This document shows positions 1 to 14,234 of a DNA stretch of 64,000 bases, in pieces. Location: NCBI RefSeq assembly GCF_016679925.1, contig NZ_JAEQBW010000001.1:1-64000 (forward strand), in the 5' to 3' direction. The position numbers and the translations under genes were made by a program. The stretch comes from Marivirga aurantiaca (GTDB lineage: Bacteria > Bacteroidota > Bacteroidia > Cytophagales > Cyclobacteriaceae). How positions within the stretch are numbered: the stretch's first letter is position 1; the number at the start of each line of letters is the position of its first letter. Below the pieces are notes generated by a model. That model was not told where the DNA came from and made no database searches. It was given only the letters and a program-made list of their open reading frames with translations.

Positions 1-302
1 ATAAACTCGATAGACCTGAGAGTGAATGGCTGAAATATCAAAGCAGATTTCGAGCGCTTCGAAAATTGATTGTTTATAGTGGAAACGGGCTAAGTACAGA
101 AACTGCATTTAAAGTTATTTATGTCTCTGATGAGTATAATATTTTGTACGACTATTTTGAGATATCAAAAATTCATGACCAGACCTTAGTTGGGTTTTGT
201 GATAAATTTGTTGTTGAACCGAGTGAATATTATAATGCCTCAGAAGTATTCTTTGATATTTCGAGGAAACTAATTCGTCAGGAAGAATTGCTTAATGAAT
301 AA
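1..302 (+). CDS. DUF4919 domain protein, C-terminal part (5' end outside window)
   Basis: The frame is open from the first bases of the window, so the true start lies upstream; an internal TTG at 66 is probably not the start. The visible part reads into a GNGLSTETAFKVIYVSDEY segment followed by an FFDIS motif near the end, which resembles the conserved C-terminal part of DUF4919, a Bacteroidota family of unknown function often found in small secreted or cytoplasmic proteins. The stop codon is 11 bases before attC-like site A, the normal spacing for cassette cargo. It is the last gene of a cassette whose left border is not in the window. Confidence 0.7.
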   Translation, partial: KLDRPESEWLKYQSRFRALRKLIVYSGNGLSTETAFKVIYVSDEYNILYDYFEISKIHDQTLVGFCDKFVVEPSEYYNASEVFFDISRKLIRQEELLNE

Positions 303-313
303 AATACGAAAGT

Positions 314-476
314 TGCCAACATCACCTATGAATGAATGGGGGTTCATCAGTCAGGAAATTTTGGAGGTACTTGGAAAGTCAGCCACAATGTGTAAATTTA
401 TTAATTGCTGTGGCTATGTGCGGATGGCAAGCTTAGTGGTTTCTAAGCCCCACTCATCATAGCCATAGCGTTACCC
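314..476 (+). repeat. attC-like recombination site A
   Basis: R'' tgccaac (314-320) and R' gttaccc (470-476) bound an imperfect palindrome. The left arm ctatgaatgaatgggg (327-342) pairs with ccccactcatcatag (448-462) with an unpaired extra base, like the extrahelical bases of attC. An inner stem agccaca/tgtggct lies at 381-416. Sites C and D are close relatives. Confidence 0.85.
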
Positions 477-487
477 ACCATTGACTC

Positions 488-1297
488 ATGCAGGATATAA
501 AAACTCTCATATTAAAAGGATATCAAAAGTTTGAATTTTCATTAGGAGATGAATCAGTGATAACTAAATATTTAAAATACCTTGAAACTCCTGACTTAGA
601 AATTAGAAAGCAAGTAGAATTATTTCATCTCGAGCTTTTAGAGAGTCTTATCTCTATTCAAGAACATGATATAAAATCCTCCAATAGATACATTAAAAAT
701 CTAAAAAGTTCAGAAAACCTTAGAAACTTCTGGGGTGAAAAATTTGAAGTCATAATTCATAGCAAGCTAATTAAATTGGTTGATCAGAATGCAATATCCA
801 CAGTAAGAAGGGGAAAGGACGGTAAAGAACCAGATTTACTTTTTGATTTTGAAAATCATCAATTAGGAATAGAATTGACCACATTAAAATTTGAAAAAAG
901 TCCAAATAAGTTAGAACTAGCTTCTTTTAAAAAAATGATGGACAAGATCAGTGAAAAAAATAATAATGTCTACGCCAATAAAAATACTGTCCTGTTTATT
1001 GATATCTCAAACATTGAATTCTTAAATGCATTAATGACAGGGAATTCGTCAGTAGATTTTCTTGATAAGTATAAAGACCAATTAGAGGCTTTATCAACAA
1101 AGCTTAATTTTAAATTTATTCTATTTCTGGAAAGTATTTTTTATTACGACTCAATGAAAAATTTAAAACGATGTCTCAATCCTATTGCAGGTATAACTGA
1201 CAATGAGAAACCTAACTCTGTTAATCGATTTCTTAATCTGGCATTTAATGATTTTAAGAAGGGAGACAATAAAATATATAGACATCAAAACATATAA
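488..1297 (+). CDS. Hypothetical protein, possible PD-(D/E)XK-like nuclease fold (cassette 2)
   Basis: A 269-residue cytoplasmic-looking protein with no signal peptide or membrane segment. Residues 1-80 are charged and helical. Around residues 83-130 an FWGEKFEVIIH segment is followed by KEPDLLFDF and then LGIELTTLKF. A Glu, then Pro-Asp, then Glu-x-Thr on successive strands resembles the active-site layout of restriction-endonuclease-like folds, but the usual Lys of ExK is replaced by Thr, so catalysis is uncertain. The gene begins 17 bases after the cassette border and ends 5 bases before the R'' arm region of site B, so it is the only cargo. I do not recognise a named family; the nuclease idea is inference. 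Confidence 0.6.
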   Translation: MQDIKTLILKGYQKFEFSLGDESVITKYLKYLETPDLEIRKQVELFHLELLESLISIQEHDIKSSNRYIKNLKSSENLRNFWGEKFEVIIHSKLIKLVDQNAISTVRRGKDGKEPDLLFDFENHQLGIELTTLKFEKSPNKLELASFKKMMDKISEKNNNVYANKNTVLFIDISNIEFLNALMTGNSSVDFLDKYKDQLEALSTKLNFKFILFLESIFYYDSMKNLKRCLNPIAGITDNEKPNSVNRFLNLAFNDFKKGDNKIYRHQNI

Positions 1298-1305
1298 TAC
1301 ACGGT

Positions 1306-1499
1306 GGGTAACATTCTGTATAAATCATGGCTGTTAGTAGGTCATTGTTCCTTCAGCTCTTTGTAGAAAGCCCGTCAATCCGCAGGATTGACTTATTGGT
1401 GAAGATTAATTTAATAAGCCAATCCTGCGGATTGCCTCGGTAGTTAACTGAAATTTTTATACTTTTAATCAGCCACGAATTTATACAGTGGCGTTAGTA
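1306..1499 (+). repeat. attC-like recombination site B
   Basis: R'' gggtaac (1306-1312) and R' gttagta (1493-1499). The arm ctgtataaatcatggct pairs with agccacgaatttatacag (1471-1488) with a bulge. Inside lies a second, nearly perfect inverted repeat built on caatccgcaggattg (about 1376-1390) and aatcctgcggattg (1421-1434), which gives a long cruciform. R'' (with flank, acggtgggtaac) is the complement of this cassette's start at 470 in 11 of 12 bases. Confidence 0.85.
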
Positions 1500-1518
1500 G
1501 CAATTCCAGAACTTGCAA

Positions 1519-2037
1519 ATGAAATTCTTAACGGACAGATATATTAGATCCTTATTTTTGATCGGGTTGGGTATTTATTTTATCGTAGAACACGAGATAC
1601 GGGAAAGACCGCAATCAACGGAAGACCTAATCGACCTTCATGGGACAATTACTGATTATTCATTTAAGGATAATACAGGTTGGAGAGGAAACGGACGTCA
1701 GTATTATATATATTTGGACGGATATCCAACTAAATTTCAAGTAAAAGCGGACTATCTAAGATTTTTTAATAAACAACAATTTGAGTATAACTATAAACGT
1801 GATAGTCAAGTAAGACTGAGCATCCCTAGGTATCAAAAGAGTTTAGTAGGAACAGATGAGAATGTTTTTTTGACATCAATTTCAGTTAACGGATTTGAAT
1901 ATCTTTCAAAGGATGAGACAATTAGTAGAGAAATTACCATGGCAACTTCAAACTCGGATTACATTTTGGGAGGTGTTTCTATTGCAATAGGAATATTGGT
2001 TTTCCTATTCTATGACAAAATTAAAAAAAGCTACTAA
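1519..2037 (+). CDS. Hypothetical membrane protein with two terminal TM segments (cassette 3)
   Basis: A 172-residue protein. A hydrophobic segment near the N-terminus (about residues 11-24, SLFLIGLGIYFIV) and another near the C-terminus (about 148-165, YILGGVSIAIGILVFLF) bracket a polar domain of about 120 residues that is probably extracytoplasmic or cytoplasmic as one block. The start was taken at ATG 1519; an in-frame TTG at 1513 would add only two residues. The stop codon TAA lies inside the R'' arm of site C (2032-2038), so the gene fills the cassette completely. No family is recognised. The middle part has a repeated aromatic pattern (QYYIYLDGYPTKF) suggesting beta strands. Confidence 0.65.
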   Translation: MKFLTDRYIRSLFLIGLGIYFIVEHEIRERPQSTEDLIDLHGTITDYSFKDNTGWRGNGRQYYIYLDGYPTKFQVKADYLRFFNKQQFEYNYKRDSQVRLSIPRYQKSLVGTDENVFLTSISVNGFEYLSKDETISREITMATSNSDYILGGVSIAIGILVFLFYDKIKKSY

Positions 2038-2194
2038 CATCACCTATGAATGAATGGGGTTTCATCGGTCAGGAAATTTGGGGGGCACTTGGAAAGTCAG
2101 CCACAATGTGTAAATTTATTAATTGCTGTGGCTGTGTGCGGATGGCTAGCTTAGTGTTTTCTAAGCCACACTCATCATAGGCATAGCGTTATGA
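2032..2194 (+). repeat. attC-like recombination site C
   Basis: R'' tactaac (2032-2038) and R' gttatga (2188-2194). The sequence is almost the same as site A through the arms and the agccaca/tgtggct core. R'' plus flank (ctactaac) is the exact complement of this cassette's start gttagtag at 1493. Confidence 0.85.
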
Positions 2195-2203
2195 GTAACT
2201 AGT

Positions 2204-2899
2204 ATGGCTAAACATAAATTTACGTATTCTGAAAAATATGCAGTCTGGGAAACTCACGGTTATTGCTGTTATTGGTGTGGAGACCCGTTAGAAATTCAAC
2301 AAACTACTGTTGATCATGTCATACCTGAACACTTAGAAGAGAAAGAAGATGAGTTGAATTGGGTAAAAGAACATTACGCTTTACCCAAGGAGTTTGAAGT
2401 GAACGCCTTTGAGAATTGGGTGCCTTCGCATAGCAACTGCAACAGTCGAAAAAGTATAACTCTGTATAAACCATCTCCAGCTTTTATTGCGATACTAGAT
2501 TCAATAATTAAGAAAGGATCGATTGCTCGAAAGAAGTTTGAATCCATTACAAAAGCAAAGGATCGCGACAAGGTCATTGGAAAAATTATGATAGACCTTG
2601 AAGACGGCAAAATCACAAAGGATGATTTAATAGCTCTATTAGGTACAACTAATGAAAAAGTTCCAGATATATCAGAAGACGTAGACGGTAAATTACATAT
2701 TCGTGTTTCTAATAGATGGAAGGTTGTTAACACAATGGATAATGATCTTGCAATGGTATCTGATGGTCGAATGGCTGGGATAACTCCAACAAATGAAAAT
2801 CCGCATATCTCATGGAGTTGTCCGAATTGTGGGAGCTACGGCCCTTGGAACGGAGTAATGTGCATGAACTGCGGAATGAAGAGTGATCCATTTGATTAA
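2204..2899 (+). CDS. HNH endonuclease with C-terminal zinc ribbon (cassette 4)
   Basis: A 231-residue protein. Residues 17-90 form an HNH nuclease domain: a CCYWCG knuckle, then TTVDHVIPEH with the metal-binding Asp-His, then ENWVPSHSNCNSRKS carrying the Asn and His of the motif. HNH enzymes cut DNA with one metal ion in a beta-beta-alpha fold. The middle (about 95-150) is basic and helical. The C-terminus (about 205-231) adds a CPNC...CMNC zinc ribbon, which may bind DNA or a partner. The gene starts 15 bases after the cassette border. Likely roles are defence or DNA processing; the target cannot be read from the sequence. Confidence 0.85.
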   Translation: MAKHKFTYSEKYAVWETHGYCCYWCGDPLEIQQTTVDHVIPEHLEEKEDELNWVKEHYALPKEFEVNAFENWVPSHSNCNSRKSITLYKPSPAFIAILDSIIKKGSIARKKFESITKAKDRDKVIGKIMIDLEDGKITKDDLIALLGTTNEKVPDISEDVDGKLHIRVSNRWKVVNTMDNDLAMVSDGRMAGITPTNENPHISWSCPNCGSYGPWNGVMCMNCGMKSDPFD

Positions 2900-2904
2900 A
2901 ATAC

Positions 2905-3064
2905 TCATAACATATGCTATGTATGAATGGGTTTTCATCAGTCAGGAAATTTGTAGGGATTGGAAAGTCCGCCACAAATGTTAATTTTAAATCAAGGCGT
3001 GGCTATGTGCGGATGGCAAGCTTAGTTGTTTCTAAGCCCCACTCATCATAGCTAGGCGTTGTGG
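2905..3064 (+). repeat. attC-like recombination site D
   Basis: R'' tcataac (2905-2911) and R' gttgtgg (3058-3064). It belongs to the A/C subfamily, with a small deletion in the left arm region and the same actcatcatag right arm. R'' with flank (tactcataac) is the exact complement of the cassette start gttatgagta at 2188. Confidence 0.85.
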
Positions 3065-3083
3065 TGCATCGGGGCAAACTCAT

Positions 3084-3833
3084 ATGAAATACATTTTTGC
3101 ATTAACTCTTACGTTTTTCCTTTTCAACATTCAAACGAACGGGCAGGAACTTGTCAACAAATGGGCTAACTCAGTAAGCAACATTGAAGGTTTTCTAGAA
3201 ATTGATAAGTCCAAGTTTGATAAATGGGACTTGAGTAATATTCTATCCAATCAAACTCAGATAAATCCACTATCAACGTACATTGGGGTATTTGGACCCA
3301 AATACAGAAGAATAGACTTTCATCTGATGGCCAGCAAAAAAGAAGGAACATATGAAGTCACTGGCAAAAGCAAGCTGGGCAATAACATCCAAAACTTGAA
3401 CGGTGAATTCAACCTTCGGAAAGTGTTTTATCGCAAACAGGATTATATATCTGACACGTTGTACATCGGAGTGTTTGACTACATCCTTCGTGAACCTGGC
3501 TTAAAGGAGGGTGACGGTGAATTCAGAGGAACGTTCTCTGTTGTTTTCTATCGTATAAACAATCAAATTCAGATTTTCAAAACCTCTTCTGGTGACGAAC
3601 CAAATTTCACAAACACTTTTGTAGGCGCTTGGAAACGCTACAACTCTGACGTTGAACGAACGGTAATATTCTCTTTTCATCCTGCTGGACTATACGAACG
3701 CCTTCCTTATTGTGAACCTTTGTATTCGACCAAAGACATGAACGATGATTTCACGATCATAAAAGAAGAATTCATTCAATATGGCTGGGAAGACTTTAAC
3801 TACAACGGTCAAAAATCAAACTGGTGGAAATAG
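3084..3833 (+). CDS. Secreted hypothetical protein (cassette 5)
   Basis: A 249-residue protein with a typical Sec signal peptide: MKYIFALTLTFFLFNIQTNGQ, likely cleaved after NGQ-region residues 20-21. There is no lipobox Cys. The mature part is rich in aromatic and beta-forming residues (IGVFGPKYRRIDFHLM, GTYEVTGKSKLGNNI, DTLYIGVFDYI), which suggests a lipocalin- or beta-sandwich-like fold, but no family is recognised. The start codon is 25 bases after the cassette border. The coding region ends 5 bases before the long R'' arm of site E. Confidence 0.7.
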   Translation: MKYIFALTLTFFLFNIQTNGQELVNKWANSVSNIEGFLEIDKSKFDKWDLSNILSNQTQINPLSTYIGVFGPKYRRIDFHLMASKKEGTYEVTGKSKLGNNIQNLNGEFNLRKVFYRKQDYISDTLYIGVFDYILREPGLKEGDGEFRGTFSVVFYRINNQIQIFKTSSGDEPNFTNTFVGAWKRYNSDVERTVIFSFHPAGLYERLPYCEPLYSTKDMNDDFTIIKEEFIQYGWEDFNYNGQKSNWWK

Positions 3834-3838
3834 ACGCA

Positions 3839-4029
3839 CCACAACATTCAGTATGAAATCATGGCGGGTCAGTGGTGTACGATAGTTTTCTGCTTTCTGG
3901 AAGCTCCGCCAAATCTGCGATTTGGCCGGTGTCGAACAAAATTTGGTTGGCCAAATCACAGATTTGGCTATCTTGTACTTGAAAGTTTAACTATATCAAA
4001 CCGCCACGATTCATACAGTGGCGTTGCCA
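3839..4029 (+). repeat. attC-like recombination site E
   Basis: R'' ccacaac (3839-3845) and R' gttgcca (4023-4029). The outer arms cagtatgaaatcatggcgg and ccgccacgattcatacag pair with bulges. A second inner inverted repeat (gccaaatctgcgatttggcc near 3908 against ggccaaatcacagatttggc near 3950) matches in 19 of 20 positions. R'' with flank gcaccacaac is the exact complement of gttgtggtgc at 3058. Confidence 0.85.
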
Positions 4030-4042
4030 ACAATAATCTGTA

Positions 4043-4127
4043 ATGTGAAATACCCTATTATGTTATAATCTTACTACTCTGCATTTCATGTACACAAGAA
4101 GCTAAATGCATTCAATTCAGCTTTTAA
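4043..4127 (+). pseudogene. Short degraded lipoprotein-leader remnant
   Basis: Reading past a one-base shift after ATG 4043 gives a hydrophobic stretch VIILLLCISCTQEAK, which looks like a lipoprotein signal peptide with a lipobox Cys, and then a stop at 4125-4127. No further coding sequence follows before the toxin gene. It may be the leftover of an earlier gene in this cassette. The stretch is short, so chance is possible. Confidence 0.25.
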
Positions 4128-4188
4128 AACAAATGTTTTGCTTGTCAAAATCCTTTAATAAAAGTTCTCTTTTTAAGAACTAAATTTA

Positions 4189-4196
4189 TATCTTTG
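4189..4196 (+). promoter_or_regulatory. Bacteroidota -7 element before higBA
   Basis: TATCTTTG fits the TAnnTTTG -7 consensus of the Bacteroidota primary sigma factor and lies 21 bases before the toxin start. No clear -33 TTG is seen. It suggests that this cassette carries its own promoter, as is usual for toxin-antitoxin cassettes. Confidence 0.5.
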
Positions 4197-4217
4197 TTGT
4201 AATTTTGAAACTTTTAC

Positions 4218-4514
4218 ATGGATAGAATATTTGCTAAAAGAACCTTAAGAGAATTTTGGGAAAAACATGCTGACTCTGAACAATATCTCAAAACATGGTA
4301 TGATACAGCTATGAACAGTCAATGGAAAACCCCGAATGATGTTAAAAACACCTATGCAAATGCTAGTATACTAAAAGATGAACGAGTTGTATTTAACATC
4401 AAAGGAAATTCTTACAGACTTGTGGTGAAGTTCAATTTTGAAAAGCAGTGGATATTTATCCGCTTTATTGGAACGCATGCCGAATACGATAAAATTGATG
4501 CCAACAACATTTAA
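4218..4514 (+). CDS. higB: HigB-type mRNA interferase toxin (cassette 6)
   Basis: A 98-residue protein of the HigB branch of the RelE/ParE toxin superfamily. HigB toxins cleave mRNA on the ribosome and are neutralised by HigA. Recognisable parts are the N-terminal helix RTLREFWEKH, the W at about 52-58 region (SQWKTPNDVKNTY), the strand VVFNIKGNSYRLVVKFNF, and the terminal WIFIRFIGTHAEYDKI with the conserved His-Ala-Glu-Tyr-Asp ending. The antitoxin gene follows after 10 bases, the inverted toxin-first order typical of higBA. It has a -7 element upstream. Such pairs are frequent in cassette arrays, where they are thought to stabilise the array. Confidence 0.93.
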   Translation: MDRIFAKRTLREFWEKHADSEQYLKTWYDTAMNSQWKTPNDVKNTYANASILKDERVVFNIKGNSYRLVVKFNFEKQWIFIRFIGTHAEYDKIDANNI

Positions 4515-4524
4515 ATAGATAATT

Positions 4525-4893
4525 ATGACAATAAAACTTATAAAAACAGATAGCGAATATCAAGAGGCCCTCAACAGACTTGAAGAAATCTTTGATGCTA
4601 AAATAGGAACTCCAGAAAGTGATGAAGCTGATATCCTAGGACTTCTTATTGATGAATATGAGAAAAAACATTACCCTATAGATGCCCCAGACCCCATTGA
4701 AGCAATTAAAATTAGAATGGAGGAAATGGATTTGAAACAGAAGGATTTAGTCGGTGTTATTGGTGGAAAAAGTAGGGTATCTGAAATTCTTAATCGAAAG
4801 AAAAAGTTGACCGTGGATATGGTTCGCAACTTGGCTGTAAGATTAAATCTATCAGCGCAAATTCTAATAAACGACTACAAGCTAATAAAATAG
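4525..4893 (+). CDS. higA: HigA-type antitoxin, XRE-family HTH (cassette 6)
   Basis: A 122-residue antitoxin and likely autorepressor. The N-terminal 65 residues are acidic and helical (RLEEIFDAKIGTPESDEADILGLLIDEYE), a common HigA lead that binds the toxin. Residues about 68-118 form an XRE-type helix-turn-helix: IRMEEMDLKQKDLVGVIGGKSRVSEILNRKKKLTVDMVRNLAVRL. The gene follows higB after 10 bases, so both are co-transcribed. The stop codon lies just before site F. Confidence 0.92.
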   Translation: MTIKLIKTDSEYQEALNRLEEIFDAKIGTPESDEADILGLLIDEYEKKHYPIDAPDPIEAIKIRMEEMDLKQKDLVGVIGGKSRVSEILNRKKKLTVDMVRNLAVRLNLSAQILINDYKLIK

Positions 4894-4899
4894 TAAAAT

Positions 4900-5028
4900 T
4901 GGCAACACTAGCTAAAAACAATGGCGGTTTTGCAGGTAATTGAAAAATACTCTCTTTTTGCTACCTTTATTTAAGCTGGAACGTGGGGAGGATTTAATCC
5001 GCCACAGTTTTTAGCCTAAACGTTAGCG
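4900..5028 (+). repeat. attC-like recombination site F
   Basis: R'' tggcaac (4900-4906) and R' gttagcg (5022-5028). The left arm ctagctaaaaacaatggcgg pairs with ccgccacagtttttagcct, with unpaired bases. It is shorter than A-E, without a large inner inverted repeat. R'' (ttggcaac) complements the cassette start gttgccaa at 4023 in 8 bases. Confidence 0.82.
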
Positions 5029-5062
5029 GTCAGGATGGTACAGTAAAGGGACATAGTTTACA

Positions 5063-6148
5063 ATGAATAAAAGAGAAACAGAATTAAAACATATTTCTAA
5101 TGAATTCTCTATTTGGGAAGTTAAACTTCGGAATCTTAGCTCTATGAGCTTATATGATGCTCATCATTTGTCTGAAGATAGTATATGTGAACTTCTTAAT
5201 ACGATTTTTAATTACCAGCTCAAAAACTTGAATTCACTAAAAATGAATTACCCAGCAATTGACTTGGGGGACGAGTTCAATTCCGTTTGCATTCAGGTAA
5301 CTTCAACTAAAACAACTAAAAAAATACAGGAGACTATAAATAAGTTTCTCGAAAAGGAATTAAACATAACCTATGATAAACTTTTCATAATTGTACTTGG
5401 TAAAAAACAGAAACGTTACACAACACTAAAAGTACCTGACACATTTACGTTCAATCCGGAAAGTCATATCTTAGATTTCGAAGACTTACTAAGACAAATA
5501 AAAACATTTCCAGTCAACAAGTTAGAGACTATTTCTAATCTTCTTACCGCTGAAAATAACTCTCATAATAGCAAGAAATCTATCTCTAATTCCACAAGAT
5601 TAAAAAGAAATTTAGCCCTTAAAAAAAGACTTCAAAAAGACTTATTAATAGAACTCCCTAGAGAGCATTGGGAAAGGTCTTGGTACGAACCATGGATTAA
5701 ATTTAAATATCATAGCGTTCTAATTAGGTCTGTTGATGATAACAAATGGCCAGAAGTTGACGATGCTCCTACAACTAAAATTAGTTCATGGTTTAAAGGG
5801 GATTTTTGGGATTTTTATGACAATGGTATAGAGTTAATAAGCGGAGGTGGAAGAGTGTTATTTGATAAAAACGGCAATTGGGATATTTTAAATTACGCTA
5901 ATGATGAAAGAGATAATAATAAAAATTATCAATTGATTAATTATCATGAATATTTGAGAATACCATACGACTATATTGTTCAATATGACATGGAAACAGA
6001 CCCCTATTACGGTATCCCTTCTATTTATGTCGAATATGCAAAAGACGGAATGCCCTATGAAGACATTCTACAAGGTATAGGTGGTTCTTATGAACTGAAA
6101 CAGCATAGACTCCTCCTGGATAAGCAAAAAAGACGTAAATTAAAATAA
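5063..6148 (+). CDS. SMEK-domain protein, putative defence-related (cassette 7)
   Basis: A 361-residue protein. Residues 1 to about 165 match the SMEK-type N-terminal domain: a helical start ISNEFSIWEVKLRNL, then LSEDSICELLNTIFNYQLKNLNS, then the AIDLGDEFNSVCIQVTS motif. Asp and the Gln-Val-Thr strand resemble a nuclease-like core. The C-terminal part (about 195-361) is rich in Trp and Tyr (EHWERSWYEPWIKFKYHSV, SSWFKGDFWDFYDNGIEL) and is not recognised; it may be a sensor or effector. SMEK domains occur in multidomain proteins often found near defence genes, so a role in phage or plasmid defence is inference. The start is 40 bases after the cassette border. Confidence 0.75.
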   Translation: MNKRETELKHISNEFSIWEVKLRNLSSMSLYDAHHLSEDSICELLNTIFNYQLKNLNSLKMNYPAIDLGDEFNSVCIQVTSTKTTKKIQETINKFLEKELNITYDKLFIIVLGKKQKRYTTLKVPDTFTFNPESHILDFEDLLRQIKTFPVNKLETISNLLTAENNSHNSKKSISNSTRLKRNLALKKRLQKDLLIELPREHWERSWYEPWIKFKYHSVLIRSVDDNKWPEVDDAPTTKISSWFKGDFWDFYDNGIELISGGGRVLFDKNGNWDILNYANDERDNNKNYQLINYHEYLRIPYDYIVQYDMETDPYYGIPSIYVEYAKDGMPYEDILQGIGGSYELKQHRLLLDKQKRRKLK

Positions 6149-6153
6149 CAAAC

Positions 6154-6300
6154 CGCCAACATGGAATATGAAATCATAGTGGTTTAGTGGGTTGTCATAG
6201 TTCTTCGCTACTTGCCATCGCCAATCCTGAAGATTGGCTTAATGGTAGATTGAACGTATATTGCAGTCAAAATGCTACAATTCATATACAGGCGTTAGCC
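6154..6300 (+). repeat. attC-like recombination site G
   Basis: R'' cgccaac (6154-6160) and R' gttagcc (6294-6300). The left arm (tggaatatgaaatcatagt) pairs imperfectly with gctacaattcatatacagg. A small inner palindrome gccaatcctgaagattggc lies at about 6220-6238. R'' accgccaac complements the cassette start gttagcggt in 8 of 9 bases. Confidence 0.8.
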
Positions 6301-6314
6301 TCAAGCGAAAAAAA

Positions 6315-7400
6315 ATGAAGAACCTATTCATAGAAATAATATTTATCAGCCTAATCATCTCATGTCAATCAAATTCTGCGAGAATAAAGCAAGATACTGT
6401 TAGTGAAAAACTGGTAATCAATTATAACGGAGATGCAGATGTTGTTCAGTTCAAGATGTTTGAAGGACTTCATCAAACTTTAACAAAAGATACGATCACT
6501 GGAATATTTGAGGGATTCTTAGAAATCCCAAATCTCAATGAGGCAATATTTACTTACGATATTGTTGTTCATAAAAAAGACTCACTAAAACGGATGATTG
6601 AATTAGAGCCTGAAAGCCATCTGGTGAAACTAAATCAACATGACGCAATAGAAGAGAGAGACCAATTTCTATGGATAGGCAAAAATCGAAATGGCAATTA
6701 TTTCAAAAATGAAGAACTCACAGGCTCACTGGTTACTAAAAGTATGACAAGTGAATTCTTAGAAGAAGAAAGAGAAATAACGGTATATACACCCAAGGGT
6801 GTAAGCTCAAAAATTCCATATATTTATTTTACAGACGGTTCGGTAGTTAAAGACTATGCGCCATATATAGACCGTCTAATCACAACTAATAAAATAAGGC
6901 CCATAAAGTTAATAGGCATCCATTCCAGTTCATCAAATAGATATAAAGAATATGTTAAAGGTGGTGACGATAATGAAGTATTTAGAAAACATCAAAGATT
7001 TGTTTACAAAGAATTAATACATTCAATTGAGAAGGAAACAGAAAACTGGGAAGGTAAAAGGTATTTATTTGGGTTTTCTAACGGAGCCGCTTTTTGCATG
7101 CACGCTGGACTAAATCAGCCAAATGTATTTGAGGAAATAATTGCATTCTCAACAGCAGATTATATTTCCTCAATGGCACAGTGGATCAGTCCGATAAAAT
7201 TTGAGTTTGATGAATACCCTAAGTTCTATATGGGGGCAGGAAGGTATGAAAAAAGTATTTTTAATAATAATATTGAGTTTTTAGACAAGCTGAAAGACAA
7301 TGAAATCCAAGTGCAGTTTAAGGAATTCGTCTCTGGTCATGACTATAATGTATGGAGAATAGAATTTCTGGAATATTTAGAAAATCGTTTCAAAAAATAA
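6315..7400 (+). CDS. Esterase-D-like alpha/beta hydrolase lipoprotein (cassette 8)
   Basis: A 361-residue putative serine esterase of the Esterase D/enterochelin-esterase fold. The start at ATG 6315 is chosen over an upstream in-frame start at 6261, because 6261 lies inside site G of the previous cassette and because 6315 gives a lipoprotein signal peptide (MKNLFIEIIFISLIISCQS, lipid Cys17). Residues 30-110 form an N-terminal beta domain. The hydrolase core has EREITVYTPKG, the nucleophile elbow GFSNGA (Ser255) and a C-terminal SGHDYNVW motif with the likely catalytic His342. It is probably anchored facing the periplasm or outside. The substrate is unknown. The coding region ends 9 bases before R'' of site H. 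Confidence 0.85.
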   Translation: MKNLFIEIIFISLIISCQSNSARIKQDTVSEKLVINYNGDADVVQFKMFEGLHQTLTKDTITGIFEGFLEIPNLNEAIFTYDIVVHKKDSLKRMIELEPESHLVKLNQHDAIEERDQFLWIGKNRNGNYFKNEELTGSLVTKSMTSEFLEEEREITVYTPKGVSSKIPYIYFTDGSVVKDYAPYIDRLITTNKIRPIKLIGIHSSSSNRYKEYVKGGDDNEVFRKHQRFVYKELIHSIEKETENWEGKRYLFGFSNGAAFCMHAGLNQPNVFEEIIAFSTADYISSMAQWISPIKFEFDEYPKFYMGAGRYEKSIFNNNIEFLDKLKDNEIQVQFKEFVSGHDYNVWRIEFLEYLENRFKK

Positions 7401-7409
7401 AAAGCAAGA

Positions 7410-7541
7410 GGCTAACACTACATATAGCTTATGGCGGGTTCAGAGGGAAAAGAAAATTTAGTACATTTAAATAAGTTTGGTGTAGGTAAACAGGAAAGCG
7501 CTTCTAAAGCCGCCACCAAGCCATATGCCTAAACGTTGGCA
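7410..7541 (+). repeat. attC-like recombination site H
   Basis: R'' ggctaac (7410-7416) and R' gttggca (7535-7541). The left arm acatatagcttatggcggg pairs with ccgccaccaagccatatgcct. R'' gaggctaac is the exact complement of the cassette 8 start gttagcctc (6294). Confidence 0.83.
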
Positions 7542-7560
7542 AACATTTAAAAAAAACTGA

Positions 7561-8782
7561 ATGAACAAAATTCTAACATTTATAATAGTTCTAGCTTTCT
7601 ACTCTTGCAACGCACAAACTAATTTTAATTCGACAATTGAATTTACTTCAGATTTAGAAAAGTTTGAAAATCTATCGGGATTGAAAGAGTCCTTAAAAGG
7701 TGTAGAAATAATTGCACTTGGAGAAAATACTCACGGACTTGGAGAAGTATTTACAGCCAAAACAGAATTAGTTAAATTTTTACATCAAGAATTAGGATTT
7801 GATTTAGTGCTTTTTGAATCAGGATATGGAGATGCTGCATTGGCTTGGGAGCAATTGGACTCACTATCTACTAGAGAATTCACAAGTGTTTTTAGCTCAA
7901 ATTTTTACTACAATTCAGAAGAAATTGAAAATCTTGTAAGCTATGTAAAATCACAAAATGGTGAATTAAAAATACAAGGTTTTGATTGTCAACCACAGCA
8001 AAACTACCTAATAAAGCGAATGACCGAAATTGTTCAATCTGTGGATTCTGTATTGGCAAAATCCGTTCTATTGGAAATGAGAAGTTTTAATAACCTCTAT
8101 CAATATGAAAACGATAATGACACATTGTCTTTCTACAAACAAAGAGACAGATTTATTGACTTTTTGAATAGTTATAACGATTTTTTGAATAAAAACTTAA
8201 ATGAATTACTTAATTCAGGGGCGACAAAAAATGAAATTAATGCTTTGAAAAAATCAAATGAAATTTTTATAGATACGTATTCAAAAATCAATATCGGTGA
8301 GATAATGAGTTGGCCAGTAGCGGATAACATTAGAGATAAATCATTATTTGAAAAAGTAAAATGGTTTAAAGAAAGCAAACCCTAAATCAAAAATCATTAT
8401 TTGGGGACAAAACAGTCATATTGAAAACAAGACAAAACCAAACTATAATGTGAATTGGATGGGACACAGTCTTAAAAATGCCTTTGCTGATAAATACTAT
8501 TCAATTGGAACAATTGTTTACAGTGGAAAAAACCTAAACTATAACGGAACCTTTGATTTTGAGCATAAAGACAATAACTATCTAGCTTACCACCTTGACC
8601 AATTTCAAAAAGAAAAGTATGTATTGGACTTACGAACATACAATAAAAACGATTTTACCAGCGAACTACTTCTAGGAATGGAAAACAATGGAAATACAGC
8701 TGAATTTATTGCTAAAGACAGGTTTGACGGGTTACTTTTTATTAAGCATAGTGGTTTACCAAAGCTGATTAAAAAAGAATAA
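7561..8782 (+). pseudogene. Erythromycin-esterase family protein, broken by a 1-base frameshift (cassette 9)
   Basis: The first frame (7561-8385) starts with a signal peptide (MNKILTFIIVLAFYSCNAQ, possible lipobox Cys) and reads into the Ere/succinoglycan-synthesis-like fold with LGENTHGLGEVF (His and Glu of the active centre) and DLVLFESGYGD. It stops at 8383-8385. From 8378 another frame continues with KIIIWGQNSHIEN and NWMGHSL, the normal C-terminal half of the family, and ends at 8782. Removing one A in the run at 8377-8379 restores a single reading frame of about 406 codons. It is either a real mutation or an error in the read. Family members hydrolyse macrolide lactones or other esters; drug resistance cannot be claimed here. 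Confidence 0.85.
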
Positions 8783-8790
8783 AAACGATT

Positions 8791-8919
8791 TGCCAACAAT
8801 TTATACGTAATGCGGGCGGAAGTGCTGATATGAAAATAATTACATTTAATAAACTAACGGCTAAACGGAAAGTGAAGTGCTTTGAAATCCCGCACTACGC
8901 ATAGCCTAGAACGTTATAG
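8791..8919 (+). repeat. attC-like recombination site I
   Basis: R'' tgccaac (8791-8797) and R' gttatag (8913-8919). The left arm ttatacgtaatgcggg pairs with cccgcactacgcatagcct. R'' tttgccaac is the complement of cassette start gttggcaaa (7535). Confidence 0.83.
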
Positions 8920-8927
8920 CACATTTT

Positions 8928-8996
8928 ATGACAGACTCGCACCAAGACAATTTGACATATAAAAACACTTGTATGGCTTTTTACCAATACGAATAA
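8928..8996 (+). CDS. Possible 22-codon leader ORF (cassette 10)
   Basis: ATG 8928 lies 14 bases after the cassette border, the same spacing as first genes in neighbouring cassettes, and opens a 22-codon frame (MTDSHQDNLTYKNTCMAFYQYE) ending at TAA 8994-8996, 8 bases before the next gene. It could be a small protein, a translation-coupling leader, or chance. No homology is recognised. Confidence 0.3.
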   Translation: MTDSHQDNLTYKNTCMAFYQYE

Positions 8997-9004
8997 AAAA
9001 AATA

Positions 9005-9238
9005 ATGAAAACTTTAATACTAATCATATCAATTTCATTTATTGTGTTTCTTTTAATTAGAGCCATCCGAAAGAATAAAAACAAAGAAGAGAGCAAATTG
9101 AGCGTTTTTGAACACCCAAGTACCTTTAAAAAGCCTGACATTGAAATGGTTTCAAAATCAATAGGAGAAAATATAAATGATAAGAAGATCGAGACTATTC
9201 TTTTTGACGACCTAAATCAGAAAGAAGAAAAAGAATGA
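9005..9238 (+). CDS. Small single-pass membrane protein (cassette 10)
   Basis: A 77-residue protein starting with one transmembrane helix (MKTLILIISISFIVFLLIRAI, about residues 2-20), followed by a basic stretch (RKNKNKEES) and a charged acidic tail. ATG 9005 is preferred over the in-frame ATG 8969, because it directly begins the hydrophobic helix. Its last codon overlaps the next start (ATGA at 9235-9238), so the two are translationally coupled. Topology suggests N-out or signal-anchor with a cytoplasmic tail. No family is recognised. Confidence 0.6.
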   Translation: MKTLILIISISFIVFLLIRAIRKNKNKEESKLSVFEHPSTFKKPDIEMVSKSIGENINDKKIETILFDDLNQKEEKE

Positions 9239-9564
9239 GAAATATCGAAATTGCATATTTACTTTTAGCCACAGCAATTTGGTTTGCAGGTTATTTCCAT
9301 AATGGACGGTTTGTACGACCGAAATGGAAAATTCCGGGAAAATTTGTTTTTTATGTAGGAGTTTCGTTTGCCTTGACATATTGGTTTGGACATTGGGCTT
9401 TGATTTTCATCTTAGGACATCCAATTATTGGACTGATTTTTCACACAAAAGTTTGTAGAGAGAACAATATAAATTGGCTGAGCTGTGAACCAAGGGAAAA
9501 ATACCTTGAATTACAAGAGAAATGGGCAAAAGGAGATTTTACTAAATCGACAAAGAAAGAATAA
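9235..9564 (+). CDS. Small multi-pass membrane protein (cassette 10)
   Basis: A 109-residue protein with about three hydrophobic segments: residues 5-20 (IEIAYLLLATAIWFAGYF), 34-50 (FVFYVGVSFALTYWFG) and 53-70 (WALIFILGHPIIGLIF). A soluble tail follows with a CREN...CEP Cys pair and a Lys-rich end. The ATGA overlap with the preceding gene suggests that both proteins work together, possibly as a membrane pair. The TAA is 7 bases before the R'' flank of site J. The function is not recognised. Confidence 0.6.
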   Translation: MRNIEIAYLLLATAIWFAGYFHNGRFVRPKWKIPGKFVFYVGVSFALTYWFGHWALIFILGHPIIGLIFHTKVCRENNINWLSCEPREKYLELQEKWAKGDFTKSTKKE

Positions 9565-9571
9565 AAACGTG

Positions 9572-9702
9572 CTATAACACACAATATAAAGTATTGCGGT
9601 TGAAGTGTTTGTGTCCGGCATCCGGTTCCAAACCAACACCATCAACGGTGGACATTAGCGCGCTCCGAAAATCTGCAACGAATTTATACAGTGGCGTTAT
9701 CT
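9572..9702 (+). repeat. attC-like recombination site J
   Basis: R'' ctataac (9572-9578) and R' gttatct (9696-9702). The left arm cacaatataaagtattgcgg pairs with ctgcaacgaatttatacagtg (9673-9693) with bulges. R'' gtgctataac is the exact complement of cassette 10's start gttatagcac (8913). Confidence 0.83.
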
Positions 9703-9714
9703 CTCATTAAAAAT

Positions 9715-11019
9715 ATGTTTACTAAGAATATATCCATCTTTTCAATAGTACTTTTGCTAACAACATCTGTTCAAGCCAGCCCTAATGATTTTGAACTAGA
9801 TGTTATTAGCTATCACTTGACAATTGAACCTGATATTGAGAAGAAATACATTAGCGGTACTGTTGTCATTAAGTTTCAAATCGAAAATGATGCTAATTCT
9901 GTAGCATTTAAGTCTGGAAACCTTAGAGTTGATAAGGTGACTGGGGACAATGTTGTAGGTTTTGAGAATAGGGATGGTAGTTTAATCATCAAATTGTCGG
10001 AAAGAGAAAAAAAGGAAAACGAACTAACGATTGATTATCATGGGAATCCGACAAATGGGCTTTTGTTCGACTCGGACCGCGGACAAACCTTTACGATATA
10101 TTCGACAAGCCAATGGATGATCTGCAATGACTCACCCGGAGATAAAGCCTTGTTCCATCTGAATATATCTATTCCATCGGATAAAGACTGTATTGCTAGT
10201 GGCCAGCTAGTGAGCCAGGTGCGAAAGAATGGTAAAATACAATATTCCTATCAACAGAATTATGAATCACCCACCTACACCTATGGATTTGCCATTGGCA
10301 ATTTCAATCAAGCGGAAGAAAAATCAGGAGAAGTATTACTTAGATACTACTCACAAGATTATACTTCCGGCCAGCTTATGACCATCTTCAAAGAAACACC
10401 CACGATGATTTCTTTTTTTGAAGAGAAATCCGGTGTGAAATATGATCAATCCAGGTATTCCCAAATACTCATTGGAAATCATTATCAAGAGATGTCAGGT
10501 TATTCAACGTTGAAAGACACCTATGGAAAGCTGGTATTGCAAGACAGCACTGAAACAAATTTGATTTCACATGAACTGGCTCATCAATGGTGGGGTAATC
10601 GAGTTACTTGTAAGAGTTGGAATCACTTTTGGCTTAACGAAGCAATGGCGACTTACCTGTCTGCAGCTTACAATGAATATCGCTTCGGCCAGAAAAAGTA
10701 TCAATCCGATATAGATTCTTACTATGAAGTATATGAAGCTATAAAAAACCGAGGTAACGATAAGTCTCTGGTTTTTGCGAATTGGTCAAACCCATCAAAC
10801 GATGATCGAAACTTAGTCTACTTTAAGGGAGCTTATGTATTGCACCTATTAAGAGAAAAAATGGGTGATGAAATATTTTGGGACGCAATTAAATTTTATA
10901 CTGCCAAATATTTTGGGGAGTCTGTTGAAACAACTGACTTTCAGAAAGCCTTTGAGGAATCATCAGGTATTCAGCTAGATGGCTTTTTCAATGAATGGAT
11001 TTATAAAAACGAGAGATAG
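9715..11019 (+). CDS. Short secreted M1-family zinc aminopeptidase (cassette 11)
   Basis: A 434-residue M1 peptidase. ATG 9715 is chosen because the upstream GTG at 9691 lies in site J, and because 9715 opens a signal peptide (MFTKNISIFSIVLLLTTSVQA). Residues 25-190 form the N-terminal beta domain; the thermolysin-like domain has HELAH (His286, Glu287, His290) and NEAMATYLS with the third zinc ligand Glu309. The usual GAMEN exopeptidase motif is replaced by QEMSGYSTL, a change seen in divergent members, so substrate handling may differ. The protein lacks the long C-terminal helical domain of full-size M1 enzymes (600-870 residues). It probably trims peptides in the periplasm or outside. Confidence 0.88.
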   Translation: MFTKNISIFSIVLLLTTSVQASPNDFELDVISYHLTIEPDIEKKYISGTVVIKFQIENDANSVAFKSGNLRVDKVTGDNVVGFENRDGSLIIKLSEREKKENELTIDYHGNPTNGLLFDSDRGQTFTIYSTSQWMICNDSPGDKALFHLNISIPSDKDCIASGQLVSQVRKNGKIQYSYQQNYESPTYTYGFAIGNFNQAEEKSGEVLLRYYSQDYTSGQLMTIFKETPTMISFFEEKSGVKYDQSRYSQILIGNHYQEMSGYSTLKDTYGKLVLQDSTETNLISHELAHQWWGNRVTCKSWNHFWLNEAMATYLSAAYNEYRFGQKKYQSDIDSYYEVYEAIKNRGNDKSLVFANWSNPSNDDRNLVYFKGAYVLHLLREKMGDEIFWDAIKFYTAKYFGESVETTDFQKAFEESSGIQLDGFFNEWIYKNER

Positions 11020-11092
11020 CATAATTTGAAATCATAGCCACACAATGCAAACGCACAGACCAAAGCTACGATTCATACATTTAACGTTATGG
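11014..11092 (+). repeat. attC-like recombination site K (short, R'' altered)
   Basis: R'' agatagc (11014-11020) and R' gttatgg (11086-11092) enclose only about 65 bases. The arm atttgaaatcatagc pairs with gctacgattcatacat. R'' gagagatagc matches the complement of the cassette start gttatctctc except that the conserved AAC end reads AGC. It overlaps the stop codon of the M1 gene. This is the last recognisable site with both ends. Confidence 0.7.
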
Positions 11093-11100
11093 GCAATTCC

Positions 11101-11330
11101 CCATATAGCTAAGCCATTGACTTCGCAAGCTAACGGGAGAGTAGATAAATTGAAAGAATTAATGAAAATCGATAATATACAAATTACTGATTTTCAACAT
11201 TTTATAAAACGTTAATCAGAACTCCTTAAGCTAATGGAAGGATAGGTCGATTGAAAAAAATAAGGAAGGACTAATAAGTACAAATTGCTTATTTTTAACA
11301 CTTTAATAAAACGTTAGTCAGAATTGACCA
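11101..11330 (+). repeat. Two tandem, diverged leader blocks before DUF4157 gene 1
   Basis: The gap 11020-11348 holds site K and then two diverged copies of a block of about 110 bases (11101-11220 and 11221-11330). Each ends in a similar AT-rich stretch (caacattttataaaacgtta and aacactttaataaaacgtta) followed by tcagaa. A third copy lies at 14235-14345 before the second DUF4157 gene. It may be a promoter/leader unit. No open frame is seen in it. Confidence 0.6.
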
Positions 11331-11348
11331 AAACCTAAAAGAAGAATT

Positions 11349-12719
11349 ATGAATGCTCACGCTGACAAAACCGAGGAGAATAAAAGCCAATCAGTTTCTG
11401 CTGTGGACTCTCAAATGGAGAGGGGTGGTGGGTCTACTTTTCAGTTTATTGATAATAGACCTGAAGCGGTTGCACAACTCAAGTTGCAAGAGATGGCTAA
11501 TAATAGTTCGAGAGCAATGCAGTTGAAAGCTATACAAGATATGGCTAACAGCAGCCAACAAGCTAAACAAGCTCCTCAATTGCAATCAATTACTGATAAT
11601 TATTCTTCTCAGCAGCCAACAATCCAAAAGAAAGAAAATAACACTGGGTTACCTGATAATTTAAAAAAAGGCATGGAAAACCTGTCTGGGATGTCACTGG
11701 ATGATGTAAAAGTATATCGCAACTCAGATAAACCAGCTCAGTTGCAAGCACATGCCTATGCGCAAGGGACGGATATTCATTTGGGGCCAGGAAAAGATAA
11801 ACACTTGCCACATGAGGCTTGGCATGTGGTACAGAAGAAACAAGGAAGAGTTAAATCTACCTTTCAGATGAAGAGAGGAGTTAACGTGAATGATGACGTT
11901 GGTTTGGAGAAAGAGGCTGATTTAAAAGGAGATGAGGCTTTACAATTCAAGTTGCAGCAACCTAAGACTGTTCAGATTAAAAAGCAACAGATTATGGTGG
12001 ACGAAAAAAGTCAAAGTTATAAGGTAGTACAAAGAGTATGGAAGAAGGATGAAGCCGGAAAAACTTATTGGGAAGGAGCTTGGGATACGGCAAGACTTAT
12101 GTGTAAACAACCTGATGGGGCATATGATGTAGAAGCTTATAGTCCTCCGAAACTGCTTTTTTGGAACAGTGATTCTAAAAAATATGAATCTACAAGTTCG
12201 AGTTTTGTGATCGAGAATTCAAAAACTGACAAGTTAAAGGAAGAAAAGGTAAGAGAGTATAACACCTTACTTTTTTGGAGAGAACTTGCAGATATGATCA
12301 ACCTCAAAGAATCTAAGCATATTTTGGCACAAATAATTGATACAATTGACTCTGCCGATGAATCTAGTTCGGAACCCATTATACTGGCTTATAGCGGGAC
12401 TTCTTTGCTGGGGATTTCAATTTACTCAGTAAAGGGGACTACAATGGGCGCACCTGAAATACCAAACAGTGAAGAGAATTGGCTTTATGTAGCATATTCA
12501 GCCGCAGACCCTCTTTCACAAATCCCCAGAGAGAAAAGAGGTCCTGTTTTTGGAGGTGTCGGTGCTGCAATGAATAAGCACTATGATCTTTTTGCAGCCA
12601 TGTTTGAGCTCCCTGTTTATCGTCATGCTGAAAACCCAATATCATATGTTTCTCTAATAAGGGCAGGCTATACCGATGTTTATGCCGATAGGGATTCTTT
12701 TGAGTTACCCGAACTATGA
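11349..12719 (+). CDS. DUF4157 (eCIS-core) protein with GNAT-like C-terminus, putative injected toxin
   Basis: A 456-residue protein. The N-terminus has a Bacteroidota cargo motif FQFIDNRPEA (31-40), then low-complexity Gln/Ala/Asn repeats. Residues about 97-170 are the DUF4157 domain (GLPDNLKKGMENLSGMSLDDVKVYRNS ... ending PHEAWHVVQ, with an HExxH motif at His155-His159). DUF4157 is established as a marker of proteins loaded into extracellular contractile injection systems. The C-terminal part (about 285-456) resembles an N-acetyltransferase fold: ILAYSGTSLLGISIYSV, then GVGAAMNKHYDLFAAMF and an ISYVSLIRAGYTDVY end. I infer an acetyltransferase-type toxin. No immunity or eCIS structural gene is nearby. 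A leader repeat lies upstream. Confidence 0.82.
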   Translation: MNAHADKTEENKSQSVSAVDSQMERGGGSTFQFIDNRPEAVAQLKLQEMANNSSRAMQLKAIQDMANSSQQAKQAPQLQSITDNYSSQQPTIQKKENNTGLPDNLKKGMENLSGMSLDDVKVYRNSDKPAQLQAHAYAQGTDIHLGPGKDKHLPHEAWHVVQKKQGRVKSTFQMKRGVNVNDDVGLEKEADLKGDEALQFKLQQPKTVQIKKQQIMVDEKSQSYKVVQRVWKKDEAGKTYWEGAWDTARLMCKQPDGAYDVEAYSPPKLLFWNSDSKKYESTSSSFVIENSKTDKLKEEKVREYNTLLFWRELADMINLKESKHILAQIIDTIDSADESSSEPIILAYSGTSLLGISIYSVKGTTMGAPEIPNSEENWLYVAYSAADPLSQIPREKRGPVFGGVGAAMNKHYDLFAAMFELPVYRHAENPISYVSLIRAGYTDVYADRDSFELPEL

Positions 12720-12884: not shown

Positions 12885-14075
12885 TTGGATCAAAAATTGA
12901 CCTTAAAACAATTACAACGCATCACATTAGAAAGTCAGGGATTGCTACAAACAGCGCCATTTGGAAAAGGAAAAAAGGCGGTACTAAATGCATTGGAACA
13001 TCTGGGGTACTTACAGATAGATACATTGTCAGTCGTTGAACGGGCACATCACCATACACTTTGGACAAGAATACCGGATTATAAACCAGCGTATTTAGAT
13101 GAATTGGTAAAAGAACGCAAAGTGTTTGAGTATTGGTTTCACGCTGCCTCTTATCTTCCTATGAAAGATTTTCGTTATGCTTTGCCTCAAATGTTAGATG
13201 TCAAACAGAATGAATCGCATTACTATAAGGCCGACCCTAAAGTGATGCAATATGTAATGGATGCCATTCGTGCAGAAGGCCCGAAAAAAGCCAGGGATTT
13301 TGAGAGTGAAAGCAAGAAAGCAGGGAGTTGGTGGAATTGGAAACCAACAAAATTAGCTCTTGAAAGGCTTTTTATGCAAGGAGATTTGATGATTAGTGAA
13401 AGAAATGGGATGCAAAAAACCTATGACATTACCGAAAGAGTACTACCTGAAAACATTGACTTAAGAGAACCAAGCTCAATTGAATTTACTGAATATCTGG
13501 TAAAAACATATCTGCGTGCTTATGGATTCACGACTGTAAAACAAATTACCCACCTGAAGACGGGAAAAATTGTAAGAAGAAATGTCAATGAAGTATTAGA
13601 ATCAATGCTTCAGAAAGGCAAAATACAAAAAGTCAATATTGAAGGCATGCCTTCTGTGTTCATAAAAAGTGATTTAGCACAAAAAGCATTTAGTGAAAAC
13701 GATTCAAATATCTGCCTTCTATCGCCATTTGACAATGCGATTATTCATCATGATCGCATCAAACAATTTTTTGACTTTGATTTTCGCCTGGAATGTTATA
13801 CACCAAAAGAGAAAAGACAGTACGGTTATTTTTGTTTACCCATCTTGTTTGGCGATGTATTTATAGGCAGAGTGGACTGCAAAGCGCATAGAAAAGAGAA
13901 ACAATTTGAGATTATACATCTGCACATTGAAAATCAAAATGTGGACATAGCATTATGGTTAGAACCTTTTATAAAATCAATAAAGTCTTTCGCAACTTTT
14001 AACGGTTGTCAATCTTTAGTATTAACAAAAGTAAGTCCATCAAAATTAACTGACACCTTGAAACGAGCGATATAA
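12885..14075 (+). CDS. AlkX/YcaQ-type (HTH_42) DNA glycosylase
   Basis: A 396-residue protein of the winged-helix HTH_42/DUF1006 family, which holds DNA glycosylases that remove interstrand crosslinks and bulky alkylated bases. Family marks are the N-terminal QGLL then a LGYLQIDTLSVVERAHHHTLWTR block with the catalytic-type Gln-Ile-Asp (about 43-45), EYWFHAASYLP (about 87-97), WNWKPTK, and the terminal LLSPFDNAIIHHDRIK segment. Translation starts at TTG 12885; no upstream ATG is in frame close by. It is flanked by the two DUF4157 genes and is probably co-located rather than functionally linked. Confidence 0.88.
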   Translation: MDQKLTLKQLQRITLESQGLLQTAPFGKGKKAVLNALEHLGYLQIDTLSVVERAHHHTLWTRIPDYKPAYLDELVKERKVFEYWFHAASYLPMKDFRYALPQMLDVKQNESHYYKADPKVMQYVMDAIRAEGPKKARDFESESKKAGSWWNWKPTKLALERLFMQGDLMISERNGMQKTYDITERVLPENIDLREPSSIEFTEYLVKTYLRAYGFTTVKQITHLKTGKIVRRNVNEVLESMLQKGKIQKVNIEGMPSVFIKSDLAQKAFSENDSNICLLSPFDNAIIHHDRIKQFFDFDFRLECYTPKEKRQYGYFCLPILFGDVFIGRVDCKAHRKEKQFEIIHLHIENQNVDIALWLEPFIKSIKSFATFNGCQSLVLTKVSPSKLTDTLKRAI

Positions 14076-14108
14076 AAATCATGGAAGATAAAGTCGAAGA
14101 CAAAACAA

Positions 14109-14216
14109 TGTAAGCGGAATGAGGTCTGAACGGCTAAAAACGCGCATTTTGGCCCCTGACAGACTTTAATGGTGGCGGACATATAATCGCCTTGAAATCC
14201 GCTACTACTCTTACTT
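14109..14216 (+). repeat. Possible decayed attC-like palindrome
   Basis: In the 543-base gap 14076-14618, the arms gtaagcgga and tccgctactactcttac can pair, and the right arm resembles that of site I (gaaatcccgcactacgc). Clear R'' and R' boxes are missing. The rest of the gap contains a leader repeat (14235-14345) and AT-rich sequence without a convincing open frame. Confidence 0.3.
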
Positions 14217-14234
14217 GATAGCTATCAGCAATCC

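Follow-up and report, generated by a model that had tools for sequence, protein, structure and literature searches.

Which enzyme moves the gene cassettes of an integron-type array when no integron integrase is in view? The question is raised by the opening 64 kb of contig C11 (NZ_JAEQBW010000001.1) of the Marivirga aurantiaca genome (GCF_016679925.1, an assembly of 36 contigs, here G000). This stretch of 64,000 nucleotides, called the window below, starts at a contig edge. A preliminary description made from the sequence alone had read its left end as an array of integron-type cassettes in the chromosome of a member of the Bacteroidota, and this identification was borne out by the complementarity of the cassette borders, the covariation of the attC stem, covariance-model matches and the presence of a cassette in two other species. 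We consider it probable that the window holds the distal part of such an array, and that the platform in the genus Marivirga consists of a tyrosine recombinase of about 380 residues, not of the IntI family and co-oriented with the cassettes, together with an attI-like head site. The comparison set comprised 10 Marivirga genomes including G000; G004 is Marivirga tractuosa, and two of the nine others are less than 90% complete. Motif names (RYYYAAC, R'', patches, Pc, catalytic residues) are those in general use.

Cassette borders and attC structure in the window

Eleven attC-type sites, A to K, lie at 314-11,092 between same-strand cassettes, with an R''-like end ..AAC and an R'-like GTTR.., in the places where the preliminary description had put them. 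In the ten testable cassettes the start is complementary to the cassette's own downstream R'' at 11, 10, 10, 11, 9, 9, 10, 9, 11 and 10 of 12 bases, whereas all other pairings of starts and R'' ends average 5.5 and reach at most 9 of 12. The sum of own matches was reached in 0 of 100,000 permutations, so that the unit-specific complementarity already claimed for the array exceeds chance. Matches of this kind are expected if each cassette has been excised and circularised; chance repeats would not leave such a trace.

A covariance model was built from 17 short attC sites of one size class, three from the window (F, H and I) and 14 from other Marivirga genomes, because MAFFT alignment of mixed site types put the arms out of register. 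In the stem of 20 pairs, 92.1% of the cells were paired, compared with 70.4% (standard deviation 1.7) in shuffled and 34-47% in slid sequences; both sides had changed in 12 of the 20 pairs (covariation score 0.54 versus 0.16). As the stem was drawn from the same 17 sequences that were later scored, these values somewhat favour the structure. Searched against the 64-kb window, the model matched all of A to K, with E values from 9.8e-14 to 0.02 for the eight sites outside its training set, plus a site at 14,096-14,230, and nothing else up to E=1. The span of 1..11086 given earlier therefore contains the sites, but the relic of the array continues past K to about 14,230. When single sites were folded, as had been proposed as a check, z was clear for B and E (-8.9 and -6.3) and near -2 for A, C and D, with no such result for F to K; since single-site energies were weak, covariation was used as the structural evidence instead.

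Cassettes shared between Marivirga species

The attC sites are present in 10/10 Marivirga genomes, as is the commonest right-end pattern. With the covariance model at E<=0.01 we counted 12-49 sites per genome, which are lower bounds because only 150 of 1,788-2,635 first-look candidates were scored in each. Several clusters of sites occur per chromosome, including the single-contig genomes G003, G006 and G009.

Two window cassettes have close counterparts in other species. Full-length counterparts of cassette 2 (695 bp), at 95.7% and 95.5% identity, occur in G003 and G004, where they sit in arrays with a recombinase at the head. On the start side the identity breaks at G|TT; the 350-nt flanks align at 43-48%, while the xerC region is 71% identical between those genomes. 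Cassette 5, which encodes a HigBA pair, shows 91-92% nucleotide identity with counterparts in G004 and G002 (loci L024 and L084). Apart from these two, no window cassette was found elsewhere at such identity. Cassettes 2 and 5 are thus units bounded by G|TT that have been exchanged between the arrays of different species, and what the preliminary description had named as its refutation, no attC-like fold by covariance models and fixed ancestral sequence with no mobility, was not what we found. Within one array of a single-contig genome (L124) a 570-bp cassette is repeated four times at 100% (410 bp compared) and occurs once more at 89.5%.

A tyrosine recombinase at the head of related arrays

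The earlier remark that no integrase is in view holds for the window, which is cut by the contig edge, but not for its relatives, whose arrays are headed by a tyrosine recombinase outside the IntI family. In G000 no gene passed the cut-off for canonical IntI, and a search of the other nine genus genomes at E<=1e-40 found none either. What we found were 11 full-length genes, in 8/10 genomes, for a tyrosine recombinase of about 370-410 aa. Nine of them (in seven genomes) have same-strand attC sites downstream, and for the remaining two (L073 and L075) the contigs stop directly behind the gene. Genome G007 has a weaker, interrupted relative only, and G000 keeps a 3' remnant of about 50 codons at the head of another array, on contig C30. 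At eight loci (L075, L121, L123, L129, L130, L167, L201 and L202) the contig breaks off no more than about 200 nt from the recombinase, as repeats at arrays would cause.

The polarity of these loci was examined with a site finder tuned to Marivirga, which was also used on distant loci. Run on the window plus 20 genus loci, it returned 92 sites scoring >=28, compared with 4 for shuffled sequence. At 50 recombinase loci, 10 from the genus and 40 chosen from family matches (20 closest, 20 more distant), 137 attC-like sites lay in 365.8 kb downstream of the gene on the same strand, compared with a single one in 194.2 kb upstream; the opposite strand held 6 and 1. Controls gave 7 in 1,231 kb of strand for shuffled loci and 1 in 57.4 kb for XerC/XerD loci. 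At least one downstream attC was present at 31/37 family loci with 3 kb of room. In integrons, intI is usually divergent in orientation from the cassettes. Taken as a positive control, 20 canonical IntI loci of the phylum leaned to the reverse layout, with 25/38 sites upstream on the opposite strand (8/20 loci) and 7/38 downstream on the same strand; several of these loci were without any site by this finder.

Searches with the recombinase as query gave matches at E<=1e-50 in 104/148 genomes of the family, not all of the array kind, at E<=1e-100 in 6/197 genomes of the class, and at E<=1e-60 in 73/296 genomes of the phylum. Canonical IntI was detected in 1/197 class genomes and, over the cut-off, in 85/296 phylum genomes, one row of which came from the same class. 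Close relatives among the matches listed come from named carriers such as Gillisia, Winogradskyella, Psychroflexus, Zunongwangia and Aequorivita. For the outer loci, L163 (best match a Xer gene) was removed from the phylum set, and L188 (a 1-kb piece) was also dropped. Site counts were lower at these loci. Same-strand downstream sequence held 29 sites in 149.6 kb at 19 phylum loci and 21 in 119.1 kb at 13 loci with other or short recombinases. Forty-eight of the 80 listed loci of named carriers (L198-L245) gave 31 sites in 220.5 kb downstream on the same strand versus 3 in 377.5 kb upstream.

Three further observations were made. The same family includes one genome, G034, with a canonical IntI (L011), where no attC was detected within the 3.9 kb examined. 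At G005:C1:2557931-2582615 a pair of tyrosine recombinases is present in four copies spaced 7,746 bases apart. Acinetobacter plasmids in PLSDB carry a recombinase, named TnpF in one record, that is 55% identical over 234 residues to an Aequorivita array recombinase.

An attI-like site behind the recombinase gene

Behind the genus recombinases there is an inverted repeat, followed by the G|TT of the first cassette about 37-48 nt past the stop codon. The arms of the repeat differ from gene to gene among genus members, and the bases after the head G|TTR are complementary to the R'' of a downstream cassette. Sixty-two loci were taken for a wider comparison, of which 50 were testable (GTT present and enough room). 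In 40/50, at least 9 of 10 bases matched a downstream R'' at a GTT no further than 140 nt from the stop, compared with 114 of 2,000 permuted starts given the same choice among GTTs. The distance from the stop to the matching GTT was 25-47 nt in 30 loci and 64-118 nt in 10. An inverted-repeat score of at least 8 was reached by 22 of the 40 passing loci, compared with 15 of 2,000 shuffles. A matching R'' is thus widespread, and a strong inverted repeat accompanies it in roughly half of the loci. The C30 remnant of G000 (L076) has kept its head site, with a 10/10 match. Judged from these matches, a putative attI-like insertion site adjoins the recombinase gene in the relatives and on C30 of G000; the head of the window array itself is missing.

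Relationship of the recombinase to IntI and Xer

Compared with TIGR02249, the integron integrase model, nine genus recombinases scored 185-209 bits in two stretches, below the cut-off of 265, whereas the IntI of G034 scored 303. Their best NCBIfam model is NF040815 in all nine cases (cut-off 220 bits); three are over it and six lie at 214.6-219.7. Between patches II and III, 40 recombinases from the genus and the family have 73-79 residues and 25 others 74-77, compared with 115-116 for 21 canonical IntI and 80-82 for six Xer proteins. By these lengths the array recombinase lacks the insert of about 40 residues specific to IntI. The residues regarded as catalytic are kept. For the N-terminal stretch of about 100 residues, Pfam gave no match at E 0.01. 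The structure predicted for the relative from Aequorivita sinensis had a mean predicted local distance difference test score (pLDDT) of 82.8 and a predicted template modelling score (pTM) of 0.60, so the domain arrangement is unsure. Fold search with this model placed XerA first (4a8e and 5hxy best) and IntI4 (2a3v) third among the PDB entries; no match confined to the N-terminal part was present among the 50 listed.

A quick tree built without the insert columns placed the 21 IntI in one clade, with a Shimodaira-Hasegawa-like approximate likelihood ratio test (SH-aLRT) support of 100, and the array recombinases outside it. The main array recombinases formed one clade (91), a second clade with array recombinases stood apart (99), and some fell elsewhere. 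Host Xer proteins were separate (SH-aLRT 99), and XerC- and XerD-like host genes are present besides, which indicates that the array recombinase is not orthologous to the host XerC or XerD. When the tree was rooted on Xer, IntI branched among the insert-free recombinases, nearest to the G343 recombinase (90). That gene (L299, 4755-5615, about 300 aa) heads an array and has neither the N-terminal part nor the IntI insert. Owing to the long Xer branches and the short tree search, ancestry is just a suggestion.

These comparisons place the Marivirga arrays beside several known systems. With chromosomal (sedentary) integrons that use IntI they share RYYYAAC/GTTRRRY-like attC ends with a covarying stem, cassettes that point one way and mostly hold a single gene, a cassette common to several species, an insertion point G|TT at the head beside the recombinase, and long arrays with a decayed distal end. 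They differ in that the Marivirga-type recombinase has no insert and, in many members, an extra N-terminal part of about 100 residues, is read in the cassette direction, and often has a head site with an inverted repeat directly behind the gene. Like a cluster of attC sites lacking an integron integrase (CALIN), the window array has at least two attC sites and no IntI was found (by our own model and the published definition); unlike in a CALIN, related arrays are headed by a recombinase, one that falls outside the IntI definition. The likeness to Xer (XerC/XerD and archaeal XerA) lies in the best fold matches, in NF040815 as the best NCBIfam model and in the lack of the insert, and the difference in the separation from the genome's own XerC and XerD in the tree and in the location at cassette arrays. 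IntI4 ranked third by profile as it did by fold; here the profile match fell into two stretches, as with other insert-holding IntI.

Weighing the explanations

From the array and its sites, the head gene and head site, their polarity and the exchange of cassettes between species, all read from sequence, the recombinase is predicted to act on attC and on the head site. It would cut both, circular cassettes would enter at the head G|TT by analogy with integrons, and by the same analogy attC would act as a folded bottom strand. The newest cassettes would then stand at the head and the oldest, decayed like K and the 14,096 site, at the tail. As the window starts at a contig edge, the head of its array is missing; this head, to the left of base 1, presumably had a recombinase gene of the same kind. 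Only the C30 remnant was found in the G000 assembly, so the window genome may now be unable to move its cassettes.

Several results weigh against this explanation. A profile search of the 36 contigs of G000 found no intact array-type recombinase, its matches being two Xer-type genes, a 417-aa gene and a fragment. No downstream attC was detected at 6/37 family loci with 3 kb of room, and beyond the family at least one site was present at 11/14 phylum-level, 8/11 short-recombinase and 15/25 named loci with room, where single sites may be due to chance. The head-site match fails in 10/50 loci, and 18 of the 40 passing loci have a weak inverted repeat only; the repeat could also be an operator or a terminator. 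Sites K and 14,096-14,230 are decayed, the folding energies of F to K (z from -1.7 to +0.6) are mostly no better than those of shuffles and are weak evidence, and a search of window 1-12,000 against Rfam gave nothing at E<=1. Moreover, NF040815 (XerA_Arch) bears the name 'site-specific tyrosine recombinase/integron integrase', that is, part of the group is already labelled integron.

The window array might instead be an ordinary CALIN whose canonical IntI has disappeared or is supplied by a plasmid or another strain, with the head tyrosine recombinase as a bystander. IntI is common elsewhere in the phylum (85/296 genomes) and occurs in the same family in G034, the window genome has no intact array recombinase, and CALINs have been proposed to arise by such loss, in the portion of PMC8618304 that we draw on. 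We regard this as unlikely, because IntI was found in none of the 10 genus genomes and in just one of the 197 of the class, because it is a non-IntI recombinase that stands at the array head, adjoining the first cassette start, and because canonical IntI loci lean to the reverse layout. Considerably less probable still is that the recombinase gene is cargo, either a cassette or an insertion element favouring arrays, and not the integrase of the system. Plasmids do carry members of the broad recombinase family (66 records), and G005 has tandem copies. A cargo cassette, however, should have attC on both sides and could take any position in an array, whereas the sites are almost all downstream (137 in 366 kb versus 1 upstream in 194 kb) and a cassette start follows the recombinase stop within 140 nt in 40/50 loci.

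That nothing here is mobile, the array being a block of conserved genes with decayed spacer repeats, would suit the decay of K and of the 14,096 site as well as the want of an intact array recombinase in G000. For cassette 2 this is refuted by its occurrence at unrelated places in three species, where identity falls off at G|TT to what unrelated flanks show, and for the array we give it a negligible probability. An integron-type array moved by its own non-IntI head recombinase remains the explanation that we favour.

Significance of insert-free array recombinases

The sections of the survey literature used here report few integrons in Bacteroidetes (PMC9024848), and an early survey, as far as its selection procedure is given in the extract used, retained only matches with the additional domain or the IntI patch (PMC2426708). 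No paper was recognised as describing a system of this kind in the open-access literature, with preprints and subscription papers outside that scope. If attC arrays headed by insert-free recombinases form a large set, searches based on IntI would miss much of the integron world of Bacteroidia, and some Bacteroidia CALINs would be complete systems. The origin and role of the I2 helix could then be tested with natural enzymes. In the part of PMC7790495 that treats this helix, its gain is presented as the step by which integron integrases moved on from double-stranded DNA to single strands, and Xer is described without it.

A tentative reading, which we hold to be possible but somewhat doubtful, is that Bacteroidia attC arrays are run by recombinases that never had I2, so that single-stranded attC recombination would not need it, and that such systems are the living grade from which IntI arose by gaining it. 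This is suggested by the branching of canonical IntI inside the wider insert-free group, with the G343 recombinase nearest. Given a head recombinase without the presumed single-strand part, how these cassettes move is a testable question.

Cassettes and neighbouring features of the window

All features are on the plus strand. The window opens with the 3' part of the first cassette gene (1..302), truncated by the contig start. Site A follows at 314..476 (R'' end at 320, R' G at 470; model match 310-479, E 5.1e-9). Cassette 1 (470..1493; gene 488-1297; own match 11/12) gave no match in Pfam, NCBIfam or PADLOC and is closed by site B (1306..1499, E 9.8e-14). Cassette 2 (1493..2188), the one common to two other Marivirga genomes, holds a small protein gene (open reading frame, ORF, 1513-2037) and ends in site C (2032..2194, E 3e-7). 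Cassette 3 (2188..3058) carries an HNH endonuclease gene (2204-2899) with site D (2905..3064, E 0.0015). The gene of cassette 4 (3058..4023; gene 3084-3833; own match 11/12), likewise with no Pfam, NCBIfam or PADLOC match, precedes site E (3839..4029, E 3.3e-7). The loops of sites B and E contain inverted repeats of 22 nt (1376-1434) and 20 nt (3908-3968), 95% complementary, which form a second hairpin inside attC.

The HigB/HigA-type toxin-antitoxin pair of cassette 5 (4023..5022) matches the PADLOC models PD-Lambda-2 A/B, and its site is F (4900..5028, a member of the model training set). Cassette 6 (5022..6294) has a SMEK-domain gene (5063-6148) that matches the PADLOC model of the Aga-associated REase, with site G at 6154..6300 (E 2.8e-5). 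The array thus also carries defence-like cargo: window 4218-4893 and 5063-6148 resemble parts of anti-phage systems, PD-Lambda-2 A and B and an Aga-associated nuclease with a SMEK domain. Cassette 7 (6294..7535; esterase gene 6315-7400) and cassette 8 (7535..8913), whose erythromycin-esterase-family gene is split between two frames (7561-8385 and 8450-8782), end in sites H (7410..7541) and I (8791..8919), both training members. Two small ORFs (8969-9238 and 9235-9564) make up cassette 9 (8913..9696), which has site J at 9572..9702 (E 1.8e-5). Cassette 10 (9696..11086) encodes an M1 peptidase (ORF 9691-11019) and ends in the decayed site K (11014..11092, E 0.02), where R'' reads AGC instead of AAC.

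Directly behind K, a 31-nt direct repeat pair with ACGTTA at 11191-11323 may represent more decayed R' ends. The decayed twelfth attC (14096..14230, E 6.9e-7) has no intact R' GTT and lies 3' of an AlkZ-like gene (12885-14075). Finally, 3' of the array there are two proteins alike in their N-terminal part, encoded at 11349-12719 (with an eCIS_core domain) and 14619-16502.

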